This document shows positions 2,739-10,129 of a DNA stretch of 64,000 nt, one piece after another. This DNA comes from Blautia sp. (GTDB lineage: Bacteria > Bacillota > Clostridia > Lachnospirales > Lachnospiraceae): contig JAFVGK010000180.1 in assembly GCA_017475035.1 (NCBI GenBank), positions 21,463-85,462 on the forward strand, written 5' to 3'. The notes beneath the pieces are model-generated. The model ran no database searches. It had not been told where the DNA came from and saw only the letters and a list, made by a program, of their open reading frames with translations. The first letter of the stretch is position 1. The number at the start of each line of letters is the position of its first letter. Made by a program: the position numbers and the translations under genes.

Positions 2739-3710
2739 TTAAAAGGATGCGATAAAAGCTTCAACTTCTTCTTTATCCGGCATGACGCGCAATGCACCCT
2801 TACGCGTTGTTACGAGGGAAGCGGCGGCATTGGCAAAGGTCAGCATCTCGGCAAGATTTTCATCTGTGAGATCCTCCAGGCCATGGTCGAGGATATAATT
2901 GATCATGCTGGCGCAGAAGGTATCGCCGGCTCCTGTGGTCTCGATGGTTTTGGAGGTGAGGAAGGGTCTTGCGGAGACCTTTCTGCCTTTATAATAAGCG
3001 CGGCTTCCGTCTTTTCCCATAGTGATGCAGATCAGAGGAATATGATATTCCTCGATCAGACGGGCAGCGCCTTCGTCATAATCTGTCGTCCCATAGAGGA
3101 ATTCTACTTCATTATCAGAAATCTTTAGCATGTCACAATGAGCAAGACCGTACTGGATCTCTGCCTTGGCGTTATCCAGAGATGCCCAGAGGGGAGGACG
3201 AAGGTTTGGATCAAAGGAGATCAGGTCTCCGGCTTCCTTTGCGACGGAAAGCGCATATCTCGTCGCTTCCCTGACGCCGGGATGCGTGGAAGAGAGGGTA
3301 CCGAAATGGAAGATCCTGCTGCTTTTAATTAAATCCGTATCTACCTCATCCTTTGTCAGCATCATATCCGCGCCGGGATCACGGTAGAAGGAGAAATCCC
3401 TGTCTCCGTCAGGATAGGTATGAACAAAAGCCAGGGTGGTATGGCACTTATCATCAACGATCAATCCACGGGTATCAATGCCGACTTCTTCTACGGCATT
3501 TTTTAACTGCTCACCAAACATATCGCGGCCGACTTTGCCGATGAAAGCGGTCTTTTTTCCCATTTTTCCCAGCATCGCAAGGACATTGCAGGGAGCGCCG
3601 CCGGGATTTGCTTCAAGCAGAGGATTTCCCTGTCCGCTGGTGCCGTTTTCTGTAAAATCAATCAGAAGCTCGCCGAGAGCCGTAACATCGATAGGACGAT
3701 TTTCAGACAT
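2739..3710 (-). CDS. PfkB family carbohydrate kinase, probable fructokinase
   Basis: A 323-residue ribokinase-fold sugar kinase. The N-terminal GELLIDFT, the NPGGAPCNVL sugar-binding segment and the C-terminal ETTGAGDTFCASM (catalytic Asp and anion hole) are all present. The frame is open for 31 codons further upstream, but AGGAGG lies 8 nt before the ATG at 3710, so translation should start at MSENRP. It would phosphorylate fructose released by the GH32 enzyme at the left edge; the two genes converge. Fructose as substrate is inferred from context. Confidence 0.88.
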   Translation of the reverse strand: MSENRPIDVTALGELLIDFTENGTSGQGNPLLEANPGGAPCNVLAMLGKMGKKTAFIGKVGRDMFGEQLKNAVEEVGIDTRGLIVDDKCHTTLAFVHTYPDGDRDFSFYRDPGADMMLTKDEVDTDLIKSSRIFHFGTLSSTHPGVREATRYALSVAKEAGDLISFDPNLRPPLWASLDNAKAEIQYGLAHCDMLKISDNEVEFLYGTTDYDEGAARLIEEYHIPLICITMGKDGSRAYYKGRKVSARPFLTSKTIETTGAGDTFCASMINYILDHGLEDLTDENLAEMLTFANAAASLVTTRKGALRVMPDKEEVEAFIASF

Positions 3711-3793
3711 AAACATTCCCTCCTGTTTTAGCCGGGAACGCAGAAAAAGCCTGGAAAAACCCTTCTTGCGTTCCATGATTTTTCCTGTCTTAT

Positions 3794-3823
3794 ATTTTAA
3801 CATATGGGTATTTCCTGCGTCAA
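3794..3823 (-). promoter_or_regulatory. Promoter of the fructokinase gene
   Basis: On the minus strand TTGACG (3823-3818) and TAAAAT (3799-3794) are spaced 18 bp apart, about 85 bp before the start codon. Confidence 0.55.
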
Positions 3824-3905
3824 CGAAGTTTTCACAAACACTACTTTTCTTTTCGCTTCGAAGATGGTATGATAAGGGATAAGAATTCTAAAGGGGGTAC
3901 CAGAT

Positions 3906-6011
3906 ATGTCGGATCTGGCTTACAGCTATATGGACTGGCCAAGGATAGAGGCCATTGTTTACCATGAAGAGGCTTCTCCGAGAGATGTGATGGCACCGCG
4001 CATTACACCGGATGGCATATTGATCCAGGGATATTTTCCTGATGCTGCGTCAGCTTCGGTCATTTCCTCGCAGAAAAAATACGAGATGGCGAGAGAGGAT
4101 GCTGCCGGCTATTTTGCGGCGGTCATACCGGGAAGAAAGATTCCGGAATACCGTTTCTGCGTGCAGTATGCAGAGGAGAAAAAAGAGTTTTATGATGCCT
4201 ATGCCTATCCCGGGACTTTGACTCCGGATGAGGAAAAGGCTTTTCTTTCCGGTGTGTTTTATGAAGCCTACAGAAAAATGGGAGCACACCGCGTGATACA
4301 AAACGGGACGTCAGGATATTCATTTGCCGTATGGGCGCCAAATGCCGTACGAGTCAGCCTTGTCGGTGATTTTAACCATTGGGACGGCCGACCTTTGCCG
4401 ATGCACAAGATGCCCATGTCAGGAATATTTGAACTCTTTATCCCCGGGATGAAGGCAGGGGAAAGATATGCCTACGAGATAAAAACAAAGCGTGGGGACG
4501 TATTTCTGAAGGTTGATCCTTATGGGGCATGTACGGTAAAAGGAAAGCCATCGGATGTTCTTCCTTTATACAGCGTGACTCCGCCGGAAGAAGATTTCAG
4601 CTGGGAGGATGCGGGATATCTGGCCGAAAGACCTGGTTTTGCGGACAGAGATACACCCTTGAGCATCCTGGAGCTGAAAGCGGATGAGTGGAAGGATCCT
4701 GCGGATCTGGTTTCCTATGTCAAGGAGAGAGGCTTTACACATGTAGAGCTTCTTCCCGTCGCGGATTATCTGCCGGACAGCGGAGAAGGGTATTCCACGG
4801 CTGCTTATTTTTCCGTAGGAATGGAGCTTGGCGGCGCGTCCGCTCTGAAAACCCTGGTTAATTCTCTTCACAAGGCCGGGATCGGGGTAATCTGTGACTG
4901 GACGCCGGCGCAGTTTTCCGGTTTTGCGGGAGGACTATCCAAATTTGACGGGACTCCTCTGTATGAACCGACAGATCCTTCGGCAGCGATTCATCCGAAA
5001 TGGGGAACGTATTTATACAATTATGACAGCCCCATGGTTAAGGATTTCCTTTTGTCAAATGCCTGTTATCTGGCGGAAGAGTTCCATATGGATGGTCTGC
5101 GGCTGGATGATGTGGATGCCATGCTGTATCTGGACTATTATCGTTCGGAAGGAAGCTATCAGCCAAATATATATGGGACGAATGAAAACCTTGCGGCAGT
5201 GGAGTTTTTCAAACACCTGAATTCCATTCTGCATAAGAAATATCCGGGGATCCTTACGATCGCCCAGGAGGACGGCTTATGGCCGGAGCTGACCCAGAGC
5301 GTGAAGGATGACCATCCGGGATTCGATTATAAATGGAATGGAAACTGGACGTCAGCCTTTTTATCCTATCTGGCTGTGGATCCGATCTATCGGAAAAATG
5401 ATCATGATCAGTTGACACTGTCGATGCTGTACGCTTATTGCGAGCATTATGTCCTTACCCTCGGAAGACGCGATGTAGGCGGCTATGCCGGATTTATGAG
5501 CAAACTTTTCGGCAGCGATGCGCAAAAACAGGCGCAGATCCGGACTGCGTTTGCGTATCAATATCTCCATCCGGGAGCAAAGATGATCACAGCCATGCCG
5601 GACGCTCCGGCAGAGCTGAAAAAGTTTCTGCATGACCTGAATGAAATTTATCGGGAATATCCGGCACTGTCGGTTCTCGATTCCGATTATGAGGGGTTTG
5701 AGTGGATTCAGCTTACCCGGTATGACGAGAATGTACTCGCCTTTTTGCGTAAGGGCAGGGAGAATGACCAGATGCTTCTGGCAGTATTGAATTTCTCGGC
5801 TGTTGATTTCGATCAATATGCCGTGGGGGTACCTTTCTCCGGAAAATATAAAGAGATATTTAATACAGATAAGACAATTTACGGAGGAAATGGTTTCACA
5901 AATCCGAGAGTAAAAGCTTCGCATCCTGAGGAATGCGATGAGCGCCCGGATTCGATCAAAGTGAGACTGGGGGCTTTATCTGCGGCGATATTTGTGTGCA
6001 GTGAAGCCTGA
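3906..6011 (+). CDS. GlgB-like GH13 protein with degenerate active site
   Basis: A 701-residue protein with the branching-enzyme layout: N-terminal region, CBM48-like module (about 125-215: SFAVWAPNAVRVSLVGDFNHWDG), GH13 barrel and C-terminal beta domain. It keeps a constant four-residue offset from remembered E. coli GlgB numbering, so the catalytic positions can be read off. Region I DWVPGHF is DWTPAQF (Asp331 kept, His to Gln336). Region II keeps Arg399 and nucleophile Asp401. Region III AEEST is AQEDG (acid/base Glu to Gln454). Region IV SHDE is GRRD (His and Asp to Arg521-Arg522). The loop around GNEFAQ and SLDW is deleted (TAMPDAPAEL). The family transfers alpha-1,4 chains to alpha-1,6 branches; this copy is probably not a normal branching enzyme and may bind glucan or act as a regulator. 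A GGGGG ribosome site precedes the ATG. Confidence 0.85.
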   Translation: MSDLAYSYMDWPRIEAIVYHEEASPRDVMAPRITPDGILIQGYFPDAASASVISSQKKYEMAREDAAGYFAAVIPGRKIPEYRFCVQYAEEKKEFYDAYAYPGTLTPDEEKAFLSGVFYEAYRKMGAHRVIQNGTSGYSFAVWAPNAVRVSLVGDFNHWDGRPLPMHKMPMSGIFELFIPGMKAGERYAYEIKTKRGDVFLKVDPYGACTVKGKPSDVLPLYSVTPPEEDFSWEDAGYLAERPGFADRDTPLSILELKADEWKDPADLVSYVKERGFTHVELLPVADYLPDSGEGYSTAAYFSVGMELGGASALKTLVNSLHKAGIGVICDWTPAQFSGFAGGLSKFDGTPLYEPTDPSAAIHPKWGTYLYNYDSPMVKDFLLSNACYLAEEFHMDGLRLDDVDAMLYLDYYRSEGSYQPNIYGTNENLAAVEFFKHLNSILHKKYPGILTIAQEDGLWPELTQSVKDDHPGFDYKWNGNWTSAFLSYLAVDPIYRKNDHDQLTLSMLYAYCEHYVLTLGRRDVGGYAGFMSKLFGSDAQKQAQIRTAFAYQYLHPGAKMITAMPDAPAELKKFLHDLNEIYREYPALSVLDSDYEGFEWIQLTRYDENVLAFLRKGRENDQMLLAVLNFSAVDFDQYAVGVPFSGKYKEIFNTDKTIYGGNGFTNPRVKASHPEECDERPDSIKVRLGALSAAIFVCSEA

Positions 6012-7217: not shown

Positions 7218-8108
7218 ATGAAAGCGAAAGAACTTCTCGAACAGGATAAAGATCGTTTCATGTCGAAGTTTGGGCAGGATTTATCTCCGAGTGACGGAAT
7301 TCTGGCGGTGGAAGATCAGCTTGACCGTATCCTTTACAGATATTGTACGGACGAGACGCCGCCGCAGGTTGCCATGCATGCCCGTTTGAGCTTTACAGCG
7401 CTGAAAGCTTCCCTGCCTCTGATGGACGAAGTCGGAGAGATAAAAATCTATGAGCAGACGAGGGAACGGACTCCAAAGGATGCTCTGAAAAAAGAAAGGG
7501 GCATACTTGCCGCGGCAATCGCTGCCGTGCTTTTGATTGCGAGTGTCATGCTGGCTTCATGCGGGGGAGGAAACGGTATTCTTATTTTTCTTTCTCTTTG
7601 TTCGGGGAGTGCAGCACTTGTGACCGCCTTTTTGCAAGGACAGCAAAAAGGAAAACCGGTAAAGGCGCAAGCCTCTCAACGTAAGATTGAAAAATGCGTT
7701 GACGTGGAAAAGCTTTATCATGATCTGTCAACCCTGATGACAGTCATGGATGAAAACCTGGAGGAAATAGAGAGTTCAGCTGCGGAAGCTGACAGGACCG
7801 AAGAGACGGAGACTGGTCCTGAGGTGCTGGATTCGTCAGTTTTGGACGCGGATTTTCTCAGCCTTCTGGCTTCTGTCCTGGAAAGCGTTTATGTGTCGGG
7901 AGAGGATGCTTACGCTCAGGAGATTGTCGCACAGATACGATTTTTCCTGCATAAGTATGGAATTGAAATGGTAGATTATTCTGCTGATCAGCAGCAATTA
8001 TTTGATTTGATGCCGTCCCTTCACGAACAGACGATTCGTCCTGCTCTTGTGCATGAGGGTGTGCTTCTAAGCAAAGGCCTGTCTACATTGAAGACAACGG
8101 TTACTTAA
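7218..8108 (+). CDS. Uncharacterised membrane protein of the Hsp70-like operon
   Basis: I do not recognise this 296-residue family. The first 90 residues are soluble and helical (MKAKELLEQDKDRFMSKFG). Two hydrophobic segments at about 95-115 and 120-142 form a hairpin with CGGGNG between them. A soluble helical tail follows with an acidic stretch (EEIESSAAEADRTEETE). No signal peptide is present. It starts 17 bp after the SH3b gene and is followed, across repeat A1, by the Hsp70-like gene. The N-terminal layout suggests a cytoplasmic adaptor anchored in the membrane, which is inference only. Confidence 0.6.
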   Translation: MKAKELLEQDKDRFMSKFGQDLSPSDGILAVEDQLDRILYRYCTDETPPQVAMHARLSFTALKASLPLMDEVGEIKIYEQTRERTPKDALKKERGILAAAIAAVLLIASVMLASCGGGNGILIFLSLCSGSAALVTAFLQGQQKGKPVKAQASQRKIEKCVDVEKLYHDLSTLMTVMDENLEEIESSAAEADRTEETETGPEVLDSSVLDADFLSLLASVLESVYVSGEDAYAQEIVAQIRFFLHKYGIEMVDYSADQQQLFDLMPSLHEQTIRPALVHEGVLLSKGLSTLKTTVT

Positions 8109-8215: not shown

Positions 8216-10129
8216 ATGGAACGCTTTTTTGGCTTTGATCTGGGGGATGCGGAGAGCGCGGTCTGCGTGCTTTCCAGAAAAGGGGAAAAGTCACCAAGGA
8301 TTCTGCCTGTCTGTGGGGAAAAAAGCCTGGTGACTGCCTATGCGACCCTTTCGGATAAAAAAATCCTGATCGGAGAAAATGCCTGTTACCATCCGGAAGC
8401 GACAGAGCGTAAGCTGCGTTTTAAAAGCAGGTTCCTGAAGGATGAGTCGAGTGAACGGGATGTGCGCTGCTTTGCTCTTGGCCTGCTGAATGAATTGTAT
8501 CAGGACGGCAGCCTGGAGCGGGACGAAGACTGCGCTTTTTATATCGGCTGCCCCGCAGGCTGGAACAGGGTGGAAAGAGAAAGGTACCGAAAGCTGTTCG
8601 AAGAGAGCGGTTTTCCTCCGGTACGGATTATTTCGGAATCCCGCGCGGCAATGGTATCGGCCTGCCAGTCACGGCATCTGCAGGTTGGTTATGATATTCT
8701 GTCACATCCGGTCCTGGTTGTGGATATAGGCTCTTCTACTACGGACTTTGCCTATATTATGGGCGGCAAAGAAGTGGAGCTGCGCACGGCGGGAGAAGTG
8801 TATCTCGGCGGGGGACTGATGGATGAGCTGCTTTTGGAGAAAAGCGTGGCTGCCAGTCCGGATGCTGACCGGATACGGGAAGTATTTGCCAAAAGTGAAG
8901 CATGGCGAAGCTATTGTGAATTTGCGGCGCGGCGGTTAAAGGAAAAATATTTTTCCGATGAGGAATATTGGAAAACAAATGATTGCGTTCAGACAGTTCG
9001 TATTTTGTATGACAGTCCCTTGCGCCTGACGCTGAGAATGAATGAAAAGATTGCGGAACAGATTCTCTACGGTCCCATGGAAGCTCTGGGAGGAAGTTCT
9101 TTCTATAAAGTATTTCGTGACAGTCTTGTACAGATTCGGGACGGACTGGCAAAGAGCCAGCCGGATCTTGTTTTTTTAACCGGCGGCGTCTCAAAGCTGA
9201 GTGTTCTTGCAAGATGGTGCAGTGTGGTTTACCCTGACGCAATCGTGATTACCGGAACCGAACCGGAGTTTTCCGTAGCCAGAGGGCTTGCCTGGTGCGG
9301 GCGGGTCGATGAGGATCTGAGGGCCTTTTCCCGTGAGGTGGAGGATCTGAAGGATTCCTCTACAGTGGAGAGGATCGTATCAAAGCATATCGGGGAGCTG
9401 TATCGTGACGCGGTGGATCATCTGACTCAGCCGATCATTGAAAATGCGGTTCTTCCTGTCCTGGATCAGTGGAGAAATGGGGAAATAACAACATTAAAGG
9501 AAATTGATGGTATATTGACAAAAGAGGTAGCGGATTATCTCCGGACAAAGGAAGTAAGGAAGCTTTTGCAGGCACCTGTAGCGGCGTGGCTGAAGCCCGT
9601 GGCTTATGAGCTGGAGGAATACACAGTTCCGATTTGTGTCAGACATAATGTCCCTTATCGCGCATTAAGCCTGAATTCCTATCTGTCTCTTTCAGAGGTG
9701 GATATTCGGGTGGAGGCAAAAGACGTTTTTGCCGTGGAAGAACTGACGTTAATGATTGATACGATTATCACGATCCTGGTAGGCATCCTCTGCGGGGGAG
9801 GAGGGATTGCCATGATCGCGCAGGGACTGCCGGGGATTATAGCGGGAGCCGTGCTTTCGATCCTGGTTCTTCTTCTGGGAAAAGAAAAAATGCAGAATGT
9901 CCTGCTTACCGCGAATATCCCGACAGCTGTGAGGAAACTGATTCCCAGGAGCACCTTTGTCAACCGTATGGATAAGGTTGCGGATCAGGTAAAGGAAAAA
10001 TTCTACGAAAGTCTGCAAAAGGAAAATAATGCCGCTATCACAGAGCATATGGCAGATGAGATATCCGCGCAGATCGATGACTGCCTGGTACGTATGGCTA
10101 AGGTGGTGGAGGTTCCTCTGGCGGGATGA
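8216..10129 (+). CDS. Hsp70/actin-fold ATPase with C-terminal membrane hairpin
   Basis: A 637-residue protein. The N-terminal 380 residues carry the actin/Hsp70 nucleotide fold: phosphate-1 FGFDLGDAES (about 4-13), phosphate-2 VVDIGSSTTDFAYIM (Asp170) and adenosine motif LTGGVSKL (about 321-328). The usual Hsp70 substrate-binding domain is absent. In its place is a helical region (380-500), two hydrophobic segments (about 510-560, ITILVGILCGGGG and GIIAGAVLSILVLLLG) and an amphipathic helical tail (570-637). Known Hsp70-like ATPases lacking the peptide-binding domain act in complexes or on filaments; the membrane hairpin points to action at the inner face of the membrane. Probably one operon with the two upstream genes. 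Confidence 0.75.
   Translation: MERFFGFDLGDAESAVCVLSRKGEKSPRILPVCGEKSLVTAYATLSDKKILIGENACYHPEATERKLRFKSRFLKDESSERDVRCFALGLLNELYQDGSLERDEDCAFYIGCPAGWNRVERERYRKLFEESGFPPVRIISESRAAMVSACQSRHLQVGYDILSHPVLVVDIGSSTTDFAYIMGGKEVELRTAGEVYLGGGLMDELLLEKSVAASPDADRIREVFAKSEAWRSYCEFAARRLKEKYFSDEEYWKTNDCVQTVRILYDSPLRLTLRMNEKIAEQILYGPMEALGGSSFYKVFRDSLVQIRDGLAKSQPDLVFLTGGVSKLSVLARWCSVVYPDAIVITGTEPEFSVARGLAWCGRVDEDLRAFSREVEDLKDSSTVERIVSKHIGELYRDAVDHLTQPIIENAVLPVLDQWRNGEITTLKEIDGILTKEVADYLRTKEVRKLLQAPVAAWLKPVAYELEEYTVPICVRHNVPYRALSLNSYLSLSEVDIRVEAKDVFAVEELTLMIDTIITILVGILCGGGGIAMIAQGLPGIIAGAVLSILVLLLGKEKMQNVLLTANIPTAVRKLIPRSTFVNRMDKVADQVKEKFYESLQKENNAAITEHMADEISAQIDDCLVRMAKVVEVPLAG

Follow-up and report, generated by a model that had tools for sequence, protein, structure and literature searches.

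A long GlgB homologue of Blautia with a replaced active site, and the repeated loss of catalytic residues at its locus in Lachnospiraceae

The plant protein ISA2, as described in the available excerpts of PMC12510319, is a non-catalytic GH13 paralogue whose catalytic residues are replaced throughout its clade, with an active paralogue in the same cell, and it acts for ISA1 in maize. In bacteria, the accessible parts of PMC7935935 and PMC11046441 report a chlamydial GlgA-GlgB fusion (Waddliaceae/Criblamydiaceae) in whose GlgB unit no branching was detected and whose genome holds a second copy, GlgB2; in the part of PMC7935935 at hand the authors blame the N-terminal fusion as the probable cause and see the genes as being in disappearance. 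GlgD is, in the corresponding portion of PMC10395257, the regulatory subunit of the ADP-glucose pyrophosphorylase GlgC; the same portion surveys the glycogen genes of the gut, counts three glgB homologues in Blautia obeum and, within its extent, does not consider inactive glgB copies. Here we describe glgB-L, a gene in a window of 64,000 nucleotides from Blautia sp. (GenBank assembly GCA_017475035.1, contig JAFVGK010000180.1, positions 21,463 to 85,462 of the forward strand), which encodes P0001, a homologue of the glycogen branching enzyme GlgB with a replaced active site. Comparison with its relatives places P0001 among several losses that arose independently at one orthologous locus of the family, a wider conclusion than that of the initial annotation of the window. 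Lachnospiraceae, Blautia among them, are common in the gut.

GlgB-L, the long GlgB of this family, resembles ISA2, as far as the excerpts describe the latter, in being a GH13 paralogue of an alpha-glucan enzyme with replaced catalytic residues and an active paralogue alongside. ISA2 is a plant protein of debranching type that had, according to those excerpts (PMC12510319), lost catalysis by the time of its lineage's common ancestor, whereas GlgB-L is bacterial, of branching type, and has lost residues at least nine times. With the chlamydial fusion, in its partial description, GlgB-L shares a bacterial GlgB unit predicted to be inactive and a second GlgB in the genome; unlike that fusion, GlgB-L is free-standing and conserved, and its active-site residues are replaced. 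GlgD is a paralogue of GlgC, with a fold and a step unrelated to those of GlgB-L. By analogy with that pair, as far as the excerpted text goes, GlgB-L may be regarded as kept beside a catalytic protein of the same pathway, a GlgB-L heteromer being hypothetical. A search of the open PMC literature by title and abstract, with subscription papers mostly outside it, returned no report of a catalytically degenerate free-standing GlgB in Lachnospiraceae; as far as searched, non-catalytic GH13 paralogues are known in plants and are new in a free-standing bacterial GlgB and with such recurrence.

The open reading frame of glgB-L is open throughout and its product has the architecture of GlgB, N1-CBM48-(beta/alpha)8 barrel-C-domain, according to Pfam, fold comparison and alignment with E. 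coli GlgB, the Pfam Alpha-amylase profile giving a weak partial match over residues 269-332 only. The best sequence and structure matches of P0001 are branching enzymes, which sets it outside the isoamylase clade (which we take to be GH13_11) and makes its likeness to ISA2 one of role only. Bacterial GlgB, presumably GH13 subfamily 9 (E. coli b3432, Cyanothece BE, M. tuberculosis 3k1d), differs from P0001 in the active site, where P0001 has Gln for Glu458, Arg for Asp526, a replaced His525 and a deleted beta-8 loop. Alignment with the E. coli K-12 GlgB from NC_000913 gives a constant offset of four between the E. coli protein and P0001 (D335 to D331, H340 to Q336, R403 to R399, D405 to D401, E458 to Q454, H525 to R521 and D526 to R522), and Tyr300 of E. 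coli is also retained, as Tyr296. The seven GH13 positions read DQRDQRR instead of the canonical DHRDEHD, so that the full invariant set is absent, and from the catalytic triad (Asp405, Glu458, Asp526) Asp401 is kept with Gln454 and Arg522 in the other two places. This bears out the initial annotation, which had counted four invariant residues replaced and three kept at an offset of four and had the loop with GNEFAQ and SLDW missing: the deletion falls near residues 563-569, and through it Trp586 of E. coli glucan site I is left without a counterpart. The Asp402 next to the nucleophile is new as well, a position that Ala occupies in 77 of the 78 intact long GlgBs. With the acid/base and the stabiliser of the transition state lost, P0001 should no longer branch, and to judge from these residues it very likely does not branch glycogen; nor should it be filed as a branching enzyme, since the feature that defines one was looked for and is absent. 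It can nevertheless be given that name automatically because its TIGR01515 score (516.6 bits) passes the NCBIfam cut-off of 463.95; it stays below other GlgB cut-offs of NCBIfam, for instance NF003811 (558.8 against 741) and NF008967 (539.4 against 577).

The replacements are shared by the orthologues of P0001. A full or contig-cut orthologue occurs in 28 of 37 genomes of the genus, our own included, relatives being 50-61% identical, and fifty loci carry the source names Blautia (Lachnospiraceae, 33), Lachnospiraceae, Eubacteriales or Clostridia bins (16) and Candidatus Scatomonas (1). From 80 rows, which include genomes entered both with and without a name and some cut sequences, we drew 53 distinct Blautia-type sequences, in all of which D331, R399, D401, D402, Q454, E455, G457, W459 and R522 are invariant and position 296 is Tyr or Phe; D404 and D456 (51/53 each) and D523 (49/53) are nearly so. 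The position of His340 is freer (Gln 33, His 14, Ala 5, Ser 1), as is that of His525, where S, T, R, K, L and others occur. The lack of conserving orthologues that would have refuted the initial annotation did not come about: Gln454 and Arg522 are conserved, position 521 being less uniform. The exchanges of Glu458 for Gln and Asp526 for Arg are not chance, since they are present in every distinct Blautia-type orthologue. Column identity among the 53 sequences is 0.93, 0.91 and 0.91 in motifs I, II and III, compared with 0.75 for the whole barrel and 0.65, 0.78 and 0.71 for the beta-2, beta-7 and beta-8 regions. The ratio of nonsynonymous to synonymous substitution rates (dN/dS), computed by the NG86 method on pairs at 72-98.5% protein identity, has a median of 0.076 and a maximum of 0.121 for the whole gene (37 usable of 70 pairs), a median of 0.082 and a maximum of 0.144 for the barrel (58 pairs), and a median of 0.061 for the intact short Blautia GlgB, GlgB-S (58 pairs). 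The absence of obvious decay, initially claimed from 701 uninterrupted codons, agrees with the whole-gene median, and by these comparisons the new Blautia active site is held by purifying selection, not drifting.

An intact second glgB, which the initial annotation proposed to look for, does exist in the same genome. It lies on another contig, is the only further GlgB there and has all seven residues (DWVPAHF, LRVDAVAS, AEEST, SHDE); two GlgA genes over the family cut-off lie on contigs C112 and C90 of this assembly (G000), and with the intact GlgB they lead us to expect glycogen synthesis. The pairing in our own genome is in itself no proof, because the assembly has 200 contigs and 5.03% contamination; in G001, a single contig of 3.74 Mb carries both the orthologue and a seven-residue GlgB. 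An artefact or binning error was rejected, the reading frame being open and both copies lying on that single contig. The short GlgB had all seven residues in each of 20 further genomes of the genus in which it was read. Altogether, 41 genomes were searched for an intact copy, a first set of 24 (23 with a degenerate long GlgB, and G281) and a second of 17, of which 24/24 and 15/17, respectively (39/41), proved to have a GlgB complete at the seven positions. Of the remaining two, G174 has a GlgB truncated by a contig end, with five of the residues intact before the break, and contig ends have left G108 with fragments of one GlgB that cannot be classified.

Beyond the genus, a long GlgB matches at E <= 1e-140 in 87 of 299 Lachnospiraceae genomes, and 85 of these loci, which are long GlgBs bearing the N1 domain, were examined with their flanks, the residue classification leaving out the own-genome pieces L001 and L003. 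Shared neighbourhoods support the orthology of intact and degenerate copies, and by its sequence context GlgB-L is an orthologous locus across Lachnospiraceae. In a sample of 150 genomes, each of another genus, 97 had an N1-type GlgB at E <= 1e-16 (a cut-off of our choice), the best copy of which was read; counting any change at the seven positions as degenerate, 28 of the 97 are changed at one residue or more, 66 are complete and three stay in the denominator unclassified (G093, partly unreadable; G108, cut; G105, not fetched). The copies of those 28 genera are changed at residues of the reaction, yet P0001, itself such a copy, is open to automatic naming as a branching enzyme. A triad position (Asp405, Glu458 or Asp526) is changed in 27 of the 28, in a few by Asp/Glu exchange only; in the other one (G101, locus L164) His525 is the sole change, as it is in L088. 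The seven-position patterns of degenerate copies are diverse (DYKTEKD, DYRNQHD, RSLADDL, DHNIQHD, NGCRARK and others), and copies uncut by contig ends are open frames of 678-1040 amino acids. On a tree of 137 rows with the motif columns removed, 47 degenerate rows need at least nine changes, and a 59-row mixture-model tree needs ten; many forks are weakly supported in both, and some joins of the larger tree may be false because long branches meet in it. That tree held ten Blautia-type rows and five of the 13 second N1-type copies, all 13 of which are complete, and left aside eleven near-duplicates of intact rows and four rows that are cut (L209, L236, L239 and L247). We read the changes as losses because the outgroup rows are intact. 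A single ancestral loss, with the degenerate rows in one clade, was rejected by the approximately unbiased test (p 0.00051, log-likelihood 260 lower, with a simple model and a quick tree).

One other lineage has fixed an altered site of its own. In the genus g232, 23 of 26 genomes match at E <= 1e-120, and in the 20 copies read (L311-L330) the acid/base is Lys and Asp526 is Glu throughout, His340 is Phe in 19 and Tyr in one, and the nucleophile is Ser (15), Ala (4) or Thr (1). On this pattern of residues, g232 has a second conserved pseudo-active site, of a different constellation and devoid of the nucleophile. In other lineages with two or three sampled genera the residues differ from one genus to the next, a pattern that resembles drift or different functions, and decay may be at work there. 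Locus L094 (genome G281) keeps the seven catalytic residues and has no beta-8 loop, an apparent intermediate. In the same order beyond Lachnospiraceae there is mostly one match per genome, and the two active sites read there (L031 and L032) are both complete.

In most degenerate copies, N1 and a pair of surface tryptophans are retained. Mean identity to intact copies is almost level in N1 (0.409 for intact, 0.387 for Blautia-type and 0.387 for other degenerate rows), and its largest fall is in the barrel (0.727, 0.486 and 0.486, respectively). The twelve glucan-site residues of E. coli GlgB come from Table 1 of PMC10254366, the accessible part of which also reports lower activity in mutants of sites I, IV, VI and VII. 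In 77-78 of the 78 intact long GlgBs, Trp occupies sites I, IV and VI; W159 of E. coli (surface site IV, in CBM48) corresponds to Trp159 of P0001, and W628 (site VI, in the C-domain) to Trp600. Both are kept in 10/10 Blautia-type rows, and in 34/37 and 35/37 other degenerate rows, respectively. At the site XII position all 78 intact rows have Leu, Phe or Tyr, and degenerate ones most often have an acidic residue. The retained glucan surface comes down to two residues, since only sites IV and VI survive in degenerate copies. A C-terminal tail of at least 20 residues, rich in Lys and Ala by pooled composition, was counted in 54/72 Blautia-type, 16/21 other degenerate and 55/62 intact rows, some Blautia-type genomes being counted twice and eight truncated Blautia-type rows excluded; P0001 has no such tail. 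Tails of this composition recall those of histone H1. They terminate the majority of the long GlgBs in the family (L005, L089, L091 and others) and measure from tens to over 200 residues.

A conserved gene with repeated catalytic loss suggests that the protein does something useful other than catalysis. We lean, by a little, towards the view that the GlgB-L of Blautia is a glucan-binding, non-catalytic partner protein with an ISA2-like role. The useful part of GlgB-L would then not be catalysis: the protein would hold alpha-glucan chains through the surface sites of CBM48 and the C-domain (Trp159, Trp600), while N1, together with the Lys/Ala-rich tail in many orthologues, might place glycogen or couple it with other glycogen proteins, GlgB-S, GlgA and GlgP being candidate partners. 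GlgB-L would thus work alongside the active glycogen enzymes, in the way that ISA2 of maize serves ISA1. The active site of the Blautia clade would have been remodelled into a fixed pocket of polar residues (Asp331, Arg399, Asp401, Asp402, Asp404, Gln454, Glu455, Arg522) that would more likely bind a chain end or another ligand than stay empty, and this pocket probably has a new use. The initial annotation had likewise thought of a glucan-binding pseudoenzyme. Its pseudoenzyme part is well supported by the replaced residues and the conservation of their replacements, and for the binding part the kept W159 and W600 are indirect signs. Its alternatives, a regulator of glycogen synthesis or a changed chemistry, stay hypothetical. 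More tentatively, the main task of GlgB-L as a whole may not be branching, the protein being a scaffold or sensor on the body of a branching enzyme, with the Blautia and g232 pockets each serving a new ligand; if true, this would explain at least nine catalytic losses with the gene retained, and two rigidly conserved pockets.

Several observations weigh against the partner-protein reading. Identity to intact copies also drops in CBM48 (from 0.649 to 0.604 in Blautia-type and 0.555 in other degenerate rows) and in the C-domain (from 0.491 to 0.447 and 0.417), and such per-domain identities are not a formal rate test, just as the dN/dS pairs are not independent. The Trp of site I, present in 77/78 intact copies, is lost in 10/10 Blautia-type rows and kept in 12/37 other degenerate ones, most other E. 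coli glucan sites are not conserved even in intact GlgB-L, and Trp159 and Trp600 may owe their conservation to a structural role and not to contact with glucan. Neither the tail nor mscS can be essential to the function of P0001, since the tail is absent and mscS is adjacent in 5/46 Blautia-type loci. Finally, nine of the 37 same-genus genomes yielded no orthologue, whether full or cut by a contig end; six of these nine are less than 90% complete, and one holds a 47-residue fragment.

If the pocket itself were the point, GlgB-L could be a sensor of metabolites or chain ends, its Blautia pocket binding the end of a maltodextrin or a small ligand that is perhaps anionic, and the protein signalling to glycogen enzymes, with scaffolding secondary. 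The charged or polar residues foreign to GlgB (D402, D404, Q454, D456, R522 and D523, in 49 to 53 of 53), the higher conservation of motifs I to III than of the whole barrel, and the different set fixed in g232 (in 20/20, Lys at the acid/base position and Glu at that of Asp526; Ser/Ala/Thr for the nucleophile) all speak for it, but those residues may instead stabilise the barrel after loop loss, and parts of the pocket have low confidence in the predicted model (predicted local distance difference test, pLDDT, under 50 at residues 287-300 and 457-468); we rate it as unlikely. A changed chemistry, in which the retained Asp401 and Arg399 serve a different reaction and Arg522 or Asp402 has taken on a new role, would account for the constancy of Asp331, Arg399 and Asp401, and of Tyr/Phe296, in 53/53 orthologues. 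It is improbable in view of Gln and Arg at two of the three GH13 catalytic carboxylates, of acid/base Glu-to-Gln variants that hold substrate in GH13 crystals (by their PDB titles, neopullulanase E357Q with maltotetraose and alpha-glucosidase E271Q with maltose), and of the parallel lineage g232, which has lost the nucleophile itself and so tells us that the GlgB-L locus does not always need it.

A redundant paralogue eroding neutrally beside GlgB-S is what repeated independent losses with differing residues, a less conserved barrel in degenerate copies and residues that differ among the two or three genera sampled in each of several lineages might suggest; the uncut degenerate copies are nevertheless open frames, dN/dS is about 0.08 in the Blautia clade, the new residues are invariant across Blautia and across g232, and N1 identity is nearly unchanged. 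On such sequence evidence neutral decay is largely refuted for Blautia and g232, and as an account of GlgB-L we give it very little weight. That P0001 is still a branching enzyme, its chemistry rescued by other residues, is scarcely credible: the GlgB architecture and the TIGR01515 score over the cut-off fit it, and the replaced acid/base and stabiliser, the deleted beta-8 loop and the complete GlgB elsewhere in the genome stand against it. The repeated loss is a natural experiment that sets the catalytic needs of the barrel against the reasons for keeping the remainder of the protein, and it makes any role of a branching enzyme beyond branching directly testable in a bacterium.

Features of glgB-L and its divergent neighbour (Table 1) are given in positions of the window.

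Table 1. Coordinates of glgB-L, of the parts of its product and of adjacent features
Feature	Position	Strand	Basis or remark
PfkB-family sugar kinase, divergent neighbour of glgB-L	2739..3803	-	same in 39/46 Blautia-type loci
Shine-Dalgarno-like AAAGGGGG, 5' of the glgB-L ATG	3890..3897	+	read directly
glgB-L (protein P0001), GlgB homologue with replaced active site	3906..6011	+	701 aa, ATG start
N1 domain (GlgB_N, residues 12-99)	3939..4202	+	Pfam; about equally conserved in degenerate and intact copies
CBM48 (residues 124-207)	4275..4526	+	Pfam CBM_48; Trp159 codon 4380-4382
GH13 barrel, residues about 250-560	4653..5585	+	limits are our choice from alignment and model
Region I: Asp331 kept (4896-4898), Gln336 for His340 (4911-4913)	4896..4913	+	alignment, orthologues
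Region II: Arg399 and nucleophile Asp401 kept; Asp402 new	5100..5111	+	alignment, orthologues
Gln454 replacing acid/base Glu458	5265..5267	+	alignment, orthologues
Arg521-Arg522 replacing His525-Asp526 (transition-state stabiliser)	5466..5471	+	alignment, orthologues
Approximate site of deleted beta-8 loop (E. coli GNEFAQ...SLDW)	5592..5612	+	alignment, near residues 563-569
C-terminal domain (residues 600-697), starts at Trp600 (5703-5705)	5703..5996	+	Pfam Alpha-amylase_C

In many genomes the GlgB-L locus is marked by serA, serC, ilvB, ilvD, DUF1015 and mscS, none of which could be recognised within the window's first 16 kb. Neighbours were tabulated for 128 loci, all longer than 6 kb (61 intact, 21 degenerate, with L085 counted among them, and 46 Blautia-type). 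In these three classes, respectively, mscS lies directly downstream in 53/61, 14/21 and 5/46, and the stretch includes serA in 29/61, 12/21 and 33/46, serC in 28/61, 9/21 and 35/46, ilvB in 24/61, 10/21 and 32/46, and DUF1015 in 30/61, 10/21 and 0/46. On one example each, Pfam bears out mscS, DUF1015, serA (2-hydroxyacid dehydrogenase) and serC (class-V aminotransferase), and the labels ilvB and ilvD are those that we presume from the look of the sequences. Scans for promoters and terminators around glgB-L gave about as many sites as shuffled sequence, and in the window as a whole the scans with Rfam and for tRNAs found a single tRNA and nothing else. Downstream of glgB-L, a 296-residue protein with no Pfam match (7218-8105) precedes one of 637 residues (8216-10126) that has weak MreB/HSP70-like matches below the Pfam cut-offs, and the two are possibly an actin-like/chaperone pair. 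At the other end, a GH32 frame (2-955) is open from the window start and its match begins only at position 180 of the 307 of the GH32 N-terminal profile, so that this gene starts before the window.

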